Source: Roseococcus microcysteis
Lineage (GTDB): Bacteria; Pseudomonadota; Alphaproteobacteria; Acetobacterales; Acetobacteraceae
Length of the DNA: 64,000 nucleotides
Direction of reading: 5' to 3'
NCBI RefSeq assembly: GCF_014764365.1
Contig: NZ_CP061718.1
Location: 4,046,501-4,110,500, forward strand
Part shown: one piece after another, positions 33,819-41,582 of the stretch
How positions within the stretch are numbered: the first letter of the stretch is position 1
How the letters are laid out: every line of letters starts with the position of its first letter
Program-made: the position numbers and the translations under genes
Notes under the pieces: model-generated
What the model saw: the letters and a program-made list of their open reading frames with translations, nothing else
Databases searched by the model: none
What the model was told of the DNA's origin: nothing

Positions 33819-34271
33819 TTACCCGCCCAGTGCCGCCTTCACCAGCGGGCCGGCCTTGGCCATGTCCAGGCTGGCGGCGTGTTTGGCTTTCAGGGCGGCC
33901 ATGACCTTGCCCATCTCCTTGATGGAGGCGGCGCCCGTTTCGGCCACGGCCTGCTGGACGGCGGCGGCCATGGCGGCCTCGTCCATCTGCTGGGGGAGGA
34001 AGGATTCGATGACGCTGATCTCGGCCTCTTCCTTTTCGGCGAGTTCCGGCCGGTTGCCCTGGCGGTAGAGTTCCACGGATTCGCGACGCGACTTCGCCAT
34101 GCCCCGCAGCATGGCGATGATGGCGGCGTCATCCACCGGCGGGCCGGGGCGGGCGGCGATGTCCGTGTCCTTGAGCTTGGCCGTGATCATGCGGAGCGCC
34201 GCGGTGCGCGGCGCGTCCTTGGCGAGCATGGAGGTCTTGAGTTCGGCGGTGAATCGGTCGCGCAGGCTCAT
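33819..34271 (-). CDS. GatB/YqeY domain-containing protein
   Basis: 150 residues from the ATG at 34271, preceded by AGGAAG. MSLRDRFTAELKTSMLAKDAPRTAALRMITAKLKD, ESFLPQQMDEAAMAAAV and the C-terminal MGKVMAALKAKHAASLDMAKAGPLVKAAL are the YqeY family pattern, related to the tail domain of the amidotransferase subunit GatB. Function is not established; a tRNA-binding role is suspected. It is divergent from carA, a common arrangement in Alphaproteobacteria, so the 86-bp interval with the palindrome at 34327-34345 could affect both genes. Confidence 0.9.
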   Translation of the reverse strand: MSLRDRFTAELKTSMLAKDAPRTAALRMITAKLKDTDIAARPGPPVDDAAIIAMLRGMAKSRRESVELYRQGNRPELAEKEEAEISVIESFLPQQMDEAAMAAAVQQAVAETGAASIKEMGKVMAALKAKHAASLDMAKAGPLVKAALGG

Positions 34272-34321
34272 GGCGGGCTTCCTATGCGTGGAGGGTTTTT
34301 CCCAGGGCGTGTGATCTCGCC

Positions 34322-34350
34322 TTGAAGTGGGAAGTGATTTCCCACATAGT
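34322..34350 (+). promoter_or_regulatory. Candidate carA promoter with a palindromic operator in its spacer
   Basis: TTGAAG at 34322-34327 and CATAGT at 34345-34350 are separated by 17 bp. The spacer is occupied by a perfect inverted repeat, GTGGGAA (34327-34333) / TTCCCAC (34339-34345), with a 5-nt centre. Transcription would start near 34357, essentially at the ATG at 34358, predicting a leaderless message. A protein bound to the repeat would block RNA polymerase. Confidence 0.5.
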
Positions 34351-34357
34351 CTAGCCC

Positions 34358-34570
34358 ATGCGCAGTGTGGAAGACATCCTCGCCCTCATGGGTGGGGCCG
34401 AAGCGGCCGCCGTAACCTGTCAGGTGGGCACCGAGGCCATCCGGAAATGGCGACAGGCCCGCGCCATCCCGGCCCGCCACTGGGCCGCGGTGATGCAGGC
34501 CACCGGCCTTCCGCTGGACGCCCTGCCTGGGGCACCCTCCTCCACGCCGCGCCCAACCAAGGAAACGCCG
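34358..34570 (+). other. HTH-like domain fused in frame upstream of CarA
   Basis: 71 codons with GC3-rich, clearly coding usage. The sequence [36 protein letters not shown] and [18 protein letters not shown] has the pattern of Cro/YdaS-type DNA-binding domains: a helix, a recognition helix with KWRxxxxIP, then HW...ATGL. It is followed by a Pro/Ser/Thr-rich linker ([15 protein letters not shown]) reaching the CarA start. With the palindrome 12 bp upstream, autogenous control of carA is a natural inference. Not a domain of ordinary CarA proteins. Confidence 0.7.
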
Positions 34571-35731
34571 ATGACCGAGACCGCCCCCGAAGGTGCCACC
34601 GCCGCGCTCGTGCTGGACGATGGCAGCGTCTTCTGGGGCCGCGGCTTCGGCGCCCATGGCACCGCGGTGGCCGAGATCTGCTTCAACACCGGCATGACGG
34701 GCTACCAGGAGACGCTGACCGACCCCTCCTACGCCGCGCAGATCATCGCCTTCACCTTCCCGCATATCGGCAATGTCGGCACCAACCCCGAGGACATGGA
34801 GGCGGCCAACCCCGCCTGCCGCGGCCTGGTGGTGAAGCAGGATCTGACCGAGCCCGCCAATTATCGCGCGACGGCGCATCTGCAGGACTGGCTGAAGCGC
34901 CACAACATTCCCGGCATCGCGGGCGTGGACACGCGGGCGCTGACCATCCGCATCCGCGATGGCGGCGCGCCCAATGGCGTGCTGGCCTATCCGGCCGATG
35001 GCCGCTTCGACATCGCGGCGCTGACGGCCCAGGCGAAGTCCTGGCCCGGCCTGGAGGGGATGGACCTCGCCAAGGATGTCACCGCCCGCCAGGCCTATGC
35101 CTGGGACGAGACGCGCTGGTCCTGGGGCACGGGCTTCGGCAAGCAGGAGGCCCCGCGCTTCCGCGTCGTGGCGCTGGACTATGGCGCGAAGCGCAACATC
35201 CTGCGCTGCCTGGCCGATGCCGGCTGCGCCGTGACCGTGCTGCCCGCCACCGCCACCGCCGAGGATATTCTCCGCGAGAAGCCCGACGGCGTGTTCCTCT
35301 CCAACGGCCCCGGCGACCCGGCGGCGACGGGCGAATACGCCGTGCCCGCCATCCGGGCGGTGCTGGAGCAGCGGATTCCCACCTTCGGCATCTGCCTCGG
35401 GCATCAATTGCTGGCGCTGGCCCTGGGCGCGCGCACCTACAAGCTCGATCGCGGGCACCGCGGCGCCAACCAGCCCGTGCAGGACCTCGCCACCGGCCGC
35501 GTCGAGATCACCAGCCAGAATCACGGCTTCGCGGTGGATGCCTCCACCCTGCCTTCCACGGCCAAGGTGACGCATATCAGCCTCTTCGACGGCAGCAATG
35601 AGGGCATCGCGGCCACCGACCGCCCGGCCTTCAGCGTGCAATACCACCCCGAGGCGAGCCCCGGCCCGAGCGACAGCCACTACCTCTTCCACCGCTTCGT
35701 GGCGATGATGGCGGAGGCCAAGGCGGCCTGA
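34358..35731 (+). CDS. carA: Carbamoyl-phosphate synthase small subunit with an in-frame N-terminal HTH segment
   Basis: The glutaminase subunit of carbamoyl-phosphate synthase (arginine and pyrimidine synthesis). The CarA part starts at Met72 (ATG at 34571, AAGGA at 34558-34562) and runs [17 protein letters not shown] to [16 protein letters not shown], with the catalytic Cys in [17 protein letters not shown]. It is 386 residues, normal for the family. The same frame is open, without a stop, from the ATG at 34358. The extra 71 residues form a helix-turn-helix-like domain (separate entry). Translation could begin at either ATG, giving a 457-residue fusion or plain CarA, or both. It leads a long co-directional gene run that includes carB 2.6 kb downstream. 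Confidence 0.93.
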
Positions 35732-38065: not shown

Positions 38066-38322
38066 CCCAGATTCTCATTATCCTGCAGGGGCTGCTCTAC
38101 ACGGGGCTGGTCGTGACCATGCTCTCGCGCGTCACGCAGCGGCGCTGGCCCGGCGCGCCGGGCATCCTGGCGGCGGCCGCGGCGTCGCTCGCCCTTCACC
38201 TGCTTCTGACATTGCTCATCCCCGCGCCCTGGCACGTCACCTGGTGGGTGTTCGTGATCCCGGGCCACATCCTCACCCCCGCGCTGCTGGTCTTCCTCGC
38301 GCGGCGCAACACAGGCGGCTGA
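38062..38322 (+). CDS. Three-helix mini membrane protein 3 of a coupled trio
   Basis: 86 residues from a GTG at 38062 that overlaps the stop of gene 2. Hydrophobic segments lie at about 3-22, 33-54 and 58-80. His46 ([10 protein letters not shown]), His58 and His69 ([13 protein letters not shown]) match gene 2 in spacing. carB begins 2 bp after the stop. Function unknown. Confidence 0.68.
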
Positions 38323-38324
38323 TC

Positions 38325-41582
<3,258 letters not shown>

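Follow-up and report, generated by a model that had tools for sequence, protein, structure and literature searches.

A Cro-like DNA-binding domain fused in frame to CarA and a conserved operator in the carA promoter suggest an autorepressing enzyme subunit in Acetobacteraceae

The carA frame begins with a helix-turn-helix domain

We analysed carA, the gene of the carbamoyl-phosphate synthase (CPSase) small subunit, in a 64,000-nucleotide stretch of the Roseococcus microcysteis genome (contig NZ_CP061718.1, positions 4,046,501 to 4,110,500; hereafter the window). The host genome is 4.2 Mb long and consists of a single contig. Within the window, a 457-codon open frame (34358-35731, + strand) carries a Cro-like helix-turn-helix (HTH) domain that is joined by a short linker to a full CarA. 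The HTH domain corresponds to residues 1-57 (34358..34528, + strand), with its recognition helix at residues 25-34. It is followed by a Pro/Ser/Thr-rich linker (residues 58-71; 34529..34570, + strand) that is predicted to be disordered. The carA gene proper (34571..35731, + strand) has its own internal start codon, ATG 34571 (Met72). Residues 1-71 sit ahead of this usual CarA start and no stop codon lies between the two parts, as an earlier note on this DNA, made from the letters alone, had claimed.

The CarA part matched TIGR01368 with 462.7 bits over residues 82-452 (cut-off 307.35), which identifies it as a CPSase small subunit. C346, H430 and E432 were invariant in 61 aligned sequences; we take them to be the glutaminase Cys, His and Glu. 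Comparison of the HTH stretch with NCBIfam NF046037 (carph-isopro) gave 57.8 bits for the stretch alone and 53.1 bits within the full open reading frame (ORF), above the cut-off of 38, making it a member of this family. The name and description line of NF046037 state no function, operator or dual start; carph-isopro may stand for carbamoyl phosphate and the Ile-Pro motif. The earlier note had read the domain as Cro/YdaS-like and suggested a Pfam search. In Pfam, P22_Cro (PF14549, 19.3 bits) and YdaS_toxin (PF15943, 16.7 bits) both remained below their gathering cut-offs of 30.2 and 30, respectively, and it was the NCBIfam model that passed.

The Cro-like reading was borne out by structure prediction. 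AlphaFold2, using 63 aligned sequences, modelled four helices (residues 4-11, 14-20, 25-34 and 39-49) with a mean predicted local distance difference test (pLDDT) score of 80.8. In the full-length model the mean pLDDT was 88.9, the HTH blocks averaged 87-97 and residues 63-71 of the linker were below 50. The structural match looked for with Foldseek was obtained: the best PDB entries were the Cro proteins of Xfaso1 (3bd1) and N15 (6on0, operator-bound) and, lower, that of P22 (1rzs), with probabilities of 1.00, 1.00 and 0.99 and TMq values of 0.58-0.66, the E-values being weak (0.02-0.25, none at 0.001). A PDB sequence search with the HTH returned just two chance matches, to designed proteins. 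Eight residues, G12, E26, A27, K30, W31, P38, H41 and G50, were invariant in the 63 sequences. The HTH-CarA domain has its fold in common with phage Cro, which uses a small palindromic operator. However, phage Cro is a free small repressor whereas the present domain is fused to an enzyme.

Conservation of the fusion in the family

Residues 1-71 were matched in 278 of 299 genomes and 98 of 102 genera sampled in the same family. Among the matches listed, all were stop-free and most open frames exceeded 450 codons, enough for CarA; shorter frames were found in G088 (220 codons) and G035 (230 codons). Reading frames were examined in 149 CarA loci, namely the window and 148 fetched loci. The HTH was in the CarA frame in 138 of the 149, a fraction that is not a prevalence, the loci having been mostly picked as HTH matches. 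From one search returning 80 loci, only 38 (L061-L098) entered this count; the other 42 came from distant CarA genes, and four of them (L099, L101-L103) served as operator controls. L085, from Acetobacter pasteurianus, has HTH-carA. The remaining 11 loci comprised 10 without the HTH (including L092, which is truncated by a contig end) and L164, with its HTH in another frame. The comparison of carA 5′ regions that the earlier note had called for thus gave, within the family, stop-free matches, with L164 as the exception whose HTH is in another frame. We considered and rejected the idea that a distinct small HTH gene precedes carA, since the frame continues into CarA in 138 of 149 loci.

A random stretch of 71 codons at the same GC content would be stop-free with a probability of about 0.30; in the actual stretch, the GC content at third codon positions is 0.82. 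Openness is therefore weak evidence by itself and conservation carries the weight. L164, where the HTH and CarA parts are in different frames, is what could be cited for chance or an assembly artefact. This explanation is already excluded by the match in 98 of 102 genera and the retention of the frame, and we give it practically no credence. Overall, one open frame in which enzyme and DNA-binding domain are both confidently predicted is kept across loci, and sequence comparison confirms that the in-frame fusion of the HTH and CarA coding sequences is real and conserved; the two are probably translated as one chain.

The closest pairs gave HTH nonsynonymous and synonymous divergences (dN and dS) of 0.021 versus 0.245 for the window and L002 and of 0.011 versus 0.333 for the window and L003, values from close relatives that suggest purifying selection on the HTH. 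Pooled dN/dS ratios over 1597 pairs (HTH 0.255; a 75-codon CarA slice 0.371) were set aside, synonymous sites being near-saturated.

Among the 21 genomes without an HTH match, 20 were tested for CarA. Three (G029, G116 and G210) had a near-full-length CarA without HTH; 4 had only partial CarA and 13 gave no CarA match. When the NCBIfam model was run across the whole class, 74 of 289 genomes matched. In the 50 survey loci inspected (L031-L060, L226-L245), the sole CarA fusion was L053, from the same family. Within this sample the CarA fusion looks restricted to the family, apart from L086 and several loosely titled contigs. The record of the HTH-CarA contig L086 bears the title Acidobacteria, which reflects either a mislabelled bin or a transfer. 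Several other HTH-CarA contigs have record titles that say only Proteobacteria or Rhodospirillales.

A conserved palindrome occupies the promoter spacer

Upstream of the HTH lies a promoter with a −35 element TTGAAG (34322..34327, + strand) and a −10 element CATAGT (34345..34350, + strand). Across the 116 loci aligned, the first three bases of the −35 element, TTG, were conserved at 97%, 91% and 91%, respectively, and the second base of the −10 element was A in 88%. The 17-bp spacer between the two elements is exactly spanned by a palindrome, TGGGAA-GTGAT-TTCCCA (34328..34344, no strand assigned), which we call the proximal operator O1. The earlier note had overlooked it. The −35 hexamer has a constant position in the aligned loci, 6 bp before the operator. 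A degenerate distal operator O2, GTGGAGGGTTTTTCCCA (34288..34304, no strand assigned; 9 of 12 positions), lies 40 bp upstream of O1. Promoter, operators and both translation starts of HTH-carA fit in about 300 bp.

To count operators, distinct upstream regions were used. The 149 sequences, less the 11 with no HTH in the CarA frame and 2 without Met (L171, L213), left 136, of which 129 were distinct. The start rule demands a Met, so that the finding of ATG at all HTH starts carries no evidential weight. The pattern TGGGAA-N5-TTCCCA was present at ≥10 of 12 positions within 120 nt upstream in 125 of the 129 distinct HTH-carA loci. The controls gave about 0.4 of 129 for shuffled upstream regions, 0 for the reversed pattern and 1 of 129 when 120 nt of coding sequence downstream was scanned instead. 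The position of the proximal site was also constrained: in 112 of 116 loci (≥8 of 12 positions) it began at −29, −30 or −31 from the HTH ATG. Within each arm, the five inner columns had an information content of 1.5-2.0 bits; columns −22 to −9 had 0.02-0.19 bit. A distal site (≥9 of 12) was found in 115 of 129 loci, mostly 37-41 bp (about 39 bp) upstream, for a stretch that had no shuffle control; 105 of 129 loci had both sites. A conserved operator-like site is thus found at the gene's own promoter, a feature looked for as a mark of trigger enzymes of the PutA/BirA type.

Comparative evidence that the fused domain may read the palindrome

O1 is the single site with at least 10 of 12 positions in the window and the single exact copy in the 4.2-Mb genome. 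A regulon was sought in this genome: besides the one exact palindrome, four other GGGAAN5TTCCC sites were found, and among the largest ORFs next to these four, inspected by eye with no profile search, no gene of carbamoyl-phosphate, arginine or pyrimidine biosynthesis was recognised. Of 60 genomes searched, 41 contained the exact palindrome, at 69 places altogether and mostly with one or two copies each; the reversed control occurred 6 times, in 5 of the 60. For 30 of the 69 places the locus had been fetched, and 28 of these 30 palindromes were directly upstream of HTH-carA. One genome, G072, holds 11 exact palindromes, mostly TGGGAAGGTGTTTCCCA, on ten contigs, none of which is its HTH-carA contig. 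These copies are perhaps a mobile repeat.

The recognition helix and the operator appear to change together in one genus. In genus g68, Q33 of the recognition helix is replaced by S in 6 of 6 genomes. The corresponding sites are CCGGAA-N5-TTCCGG in five genomes and, in one, CCGGAA-N5-TTCCGA at the proximal place. Judged over all loci, this co-change is imperfect. A second line of evidence comes from carA genes lacking the HTH. The three in the family (G029, G116, G210) reached 8, 7 and 9 of 12 positions within 400 nt upstream, and all 13 scored outside the family reached 7 or 8 of 12. HTH and operator seem therefore to have been lost together.

These observations bear on the idea that another, unlinked regulator binds the palindrome while the HTH is still translated with CarA. 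Palindromic operators are common, and one locus, L188, carries the HTH without a site. However, an unlinked regulator would leave unaccounted for the co-change of the fused helix and the operator arms in all six g68 genomes, the joint loss, and the position of 28 of 30 exact palindromes beside HTH-carA. We regard an unlinked regulator as improbable.

Two probable translation starts

The spacing of the −35 box, about −35 relative to the HTH ATG, predicts a transcription start at or adjoining this ATG, 34358, which would be a leaderless start. The long HTH-CarA form is probably translated from leaderless mRNA. Consistently, among the 111 loci whose operator starts at −29 to −31, only 9 had a Shine-Dalgarno (SD) sequence at the HTH ATG, as compared to 9 of the 18 others.

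The internal start has a different character. In the window, it is preceded by the SD sequence AAGGA at 34559..34563 (+ strand), exactly as the earlier note had read it. Internal starts were counted in 125 loci, the 129 distinct ones less 4 without the CarA core pattern. An in-frame linker ATG with an SD of at least 4 nt was found in 85 of the 125 loci; the other two frames gave 3 and 0. An SD of this length preceded 85 of 102 linker ATGs as compared to 15 of 452 ATGs within CarA. Two products, long HTH-CarA and short CarA, are therefore likely on these counts where the linker ATG exists; that dual products were possible had been noticed from the window alone.

The same counts could be taken to mean that only short CarA is made, the HTH stretch in its frame being either a leader or a small, uncoupled ORF lacking a stop by chance. 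The conserved internal ATG and SD, the mostly SD-less HTH ATG and the chance openness given above would agree with this. On the other hand, the frame is retained in the 138 of 149 loci despite variation of the linker in length and sequence, and a separate gene would gain stops. Furthermore, PMC5756330 describes, in the acetic acid bacterium Gluconobacter oxydans, leaderless mRNAs, nearly all of them ATG-initial, and a ribosome site aGGAg. We consider it very improbable that short CarA is the only product.

A model for autorepression by HTH-CarA

Altogether, comparative sequence evidence makes it very probable that HTH-CarA is an autorepressing trigger enzyme with a cognate operator and two products. 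The features with comparative support are the Cro-like HTH fused at the CarA N-terminus, its cognate operator TGGGAA-N5-TTCCCA between −35 and −10 and the second operator, usually about 39 bp upstream of the first. CarAB assembly would bring HTH-CarA into dimers, which would bind the operator. Bound HTH-CarA would then exclude RNA polymerase and carA would be autorepressed. Autorepression is the simplest reading because occupation of an operator inside this spacer should block the polymerase. HTH-CarA on its operator might instead activate or fine-tune the promoter, and the distal operator, upstream of the promoter, is at a possible activator position. The proximal operator, however, covers the whole of a −35/−10 spacer of normal length (17 bp) and its binding should block polymerase, which makes activation unlikely.

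In the autorepression model, the long form translated from leaderless mRNA would be the sensor-repressor, while ribosomes at the internal SD would yield plain CarA; this short form could serve to dilute the HTHs of the assembly. More tentatively, the oligomeric state of CPSase might set the binding of paired HTHs to the two palindromes. The two palindromes offer four half-sites, which an HTH-bearing tetramer could fill. In E. coli, ornithine favours CPSase tetramers and UMP (uridine monophosphate) a single heterodimer, according to PMC6245113. Pathway status would thereby be coupled to transcription, a step that we put forward as a hypothesis.

Several observations weigh against this model. 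The preference for repression over activation is drawn from one feature, the operator position, and ligand sensing through the oligomeric state is the weaker part of the proposal. Fewer than 10 of 12 positions were found in 4 of 129 loci: L084 and L215 (9) and L086 (8) have CCGGAA-type sites, and L188 (6), which keeps the HTH with no recognisable site, is an unexplained exception. Away from carA lie 2 of the 30 fetched exact palindromes and the 11 repeats of G072. As to recognition, in five of the six g68 genomes it is the distal site that is perfect, with a degenerate proximal one; in genus g83 (T33) the sites are mixed, and L086 has a CCGGAA site despite Q33, with residues 25-26 altered. Given the mixed g83 sites and the changed site of L086, the recognition code does not appear to be a single residue. 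The short form is not universal, because 40 of 125 loci (36 when GTG and TTG are counted) have no SD-preceded linker ATG. In L164 (genome G088, few contigs), HTH and operators are upstream of CarA in a different frame, reflecting either a true split or a sequencing indel. Finally, the loci are related and the counts not independent.

The HTH-CarA model can be compared to known trigger enzymes. The DNA-binding part of PutA is a ribbon-helix-helix and that of BirA a winged HTH. Both enzymes also repress genes of their own pathways, as proposed here for HTH-CarA (PMC6978683). HTH-CarA differs from them in its enzyme, in having a Cro-like HTH, in the placing of its operator within the promoter spacer and in probably being translated from two starts. 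Carbamoyl phosphate supplies arginine and pyrimidine synthesis, and the E. coli enzyme is under many unlinked regulators. At E. coli carAB, trigger enzymes also act at the promoter, but they are unlinked: PepA and PyrH, alongside ArgR, PurR, RutR and IHF (PMC6245113 for both statements). In HTH-CarA, unlike E. coli carAB, the regulated subunit itself bears the HTH.

Direct gene control by the fusion, which the earlier note had only guessed, is now supported by the conserved operator and by the g68 co-change, as far as sequences can tell. One correction to the note is that the HTH already has a name, NF046037. We found no literature on the function of carph-isopro or of an HTH-CarA fusion, in a search that left most subscription journals outside. 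What was already known is the domain name in NCBIfam; the operator, the putative leaderless long form, the probable dual start, the co-change and the joint loss are new. CarA seems to be its own regulator and offers a simple, directly testable model of a metabolic enzyme turned transcription factor.

The same type of domain on other metabolic enzymes

Frames of HisZ, CoaBC, SerA, PyrB, ArgB, PdhA, NnrDE and Ccr that begin with an HTH of this type occur in other families of Alphaproteobacteria. Enzyme identities come from nine proteins scanned with NCBIfam; in each set the enzyme was profiled in one or two loci, the rest being assigned by HTH match and frame length. These non-CarA loci are often close relatives, and their counts are not independent. 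The enzyme parts were above the curated cut-off except for HisZ, strong (E to 4.5e-84) yet below cut-off. The HTH part passed the NF046037 cut-off in the SerA, PyrB, NnrDE and Ccr proteins. It scored 31.8-35 bits, below this cut-off, in PdhA, ArgB and one HisZ, and NF046037 at E 1e-5 gave no match in CoaBC and the other HisZ. A common origin is not proven, because the HTH is below the cut-off in the HisZ, CoaBC, ArgB and PdhA proteins scanned.

HisZ frames with the HTH occur in two families, f49 and f19 (L226-L231, L293-L307; HisZ profiled in L226 and L230), and of the 18 genomes in its family, 15 had the HisZ-type HTH. All 14 distinct upstream regions from f49 (15 of 15 loci scored) contained two copies of ATTCATA-N3-TATGAAT, as compared to 0.14 in shuffles. 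The CoaBC-type HTH was found in 37 of 41 genomes of f109 (L232, L233, L316-L339; CoaBC profiled in L232 only). From these 37 genomes 24 loci were taken and 22 scored; TTCACA-N4-TGTGAA was present in 16 of their 21 distinct upstream regions, with 0.09 in shuffles. For PyrB, the HTH was found in 3 of 11 genomes (L240, L308-L310; aspartate carbamoyltransferase profiled in L240). In 3 of 3 loci, a palindrome with perfect 7-8-bp arms around a 5-bp gap lay at −60 or −61; the fixed pattern with a wrong gap gave 0 of 3 at threshold. For ArgB, the HTH was found in 4 of 4 genomes (L241-L244, L312-L315; acetylglutamate kinase profiled in L242, L241 by eye). Its palindromes were weak, the pattern giving 0 of 3 at threshold (3 of 4 loci scored). 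Single loci had the HTH in frame with SerA (L239), PdhA (L236), NnrD/NnrE (L050) and crotonyl-CoA reductase (L057). Mitofilin/Mic60-type proteins also start with the domain; two were profiled (L035, L040) and similar frames were seen by eye.

Arginine and pyrimidine enzymes thus appear to recur as partners of the HTH. The layout recurs as well: the domain at the front, a palindrome just upstream, often paired, and operator sequences that differ. Many of the partner enzymes are feedback-sensitive. We lean slightly towards a general device, in which a Cro-like HTH would have been grafted repeatedly, in Alphaproteobacteria, on the front of metabolic enzymes to give ligand-responsive, single-target autorepressors with palindromic operators of their own and, in the case of CarA at least, a pair of translation starts. 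If true, this wider pattern would mean that one type of DNA-binding domain has repeatedly been fused to metabolic enzymes, each with a private operator.

Neighbouring genes and a stand-alone domain

Upstream of HTH-carA, the YqeY gene is divergent (33819-34271, − strand). Downstream, carB (38244-41582, recognised by eye) is on the same strand as carA, with about 2.5 kb of other ORFs between them. Because these ORFs divide carA from carB, carB may have its own promoter, outside HTH-CarA control. Elsewhere in the same genome, a 116-codon ORF (L245; C1:510186-510365, − strand) carries a second, stand-alone domain of this type.
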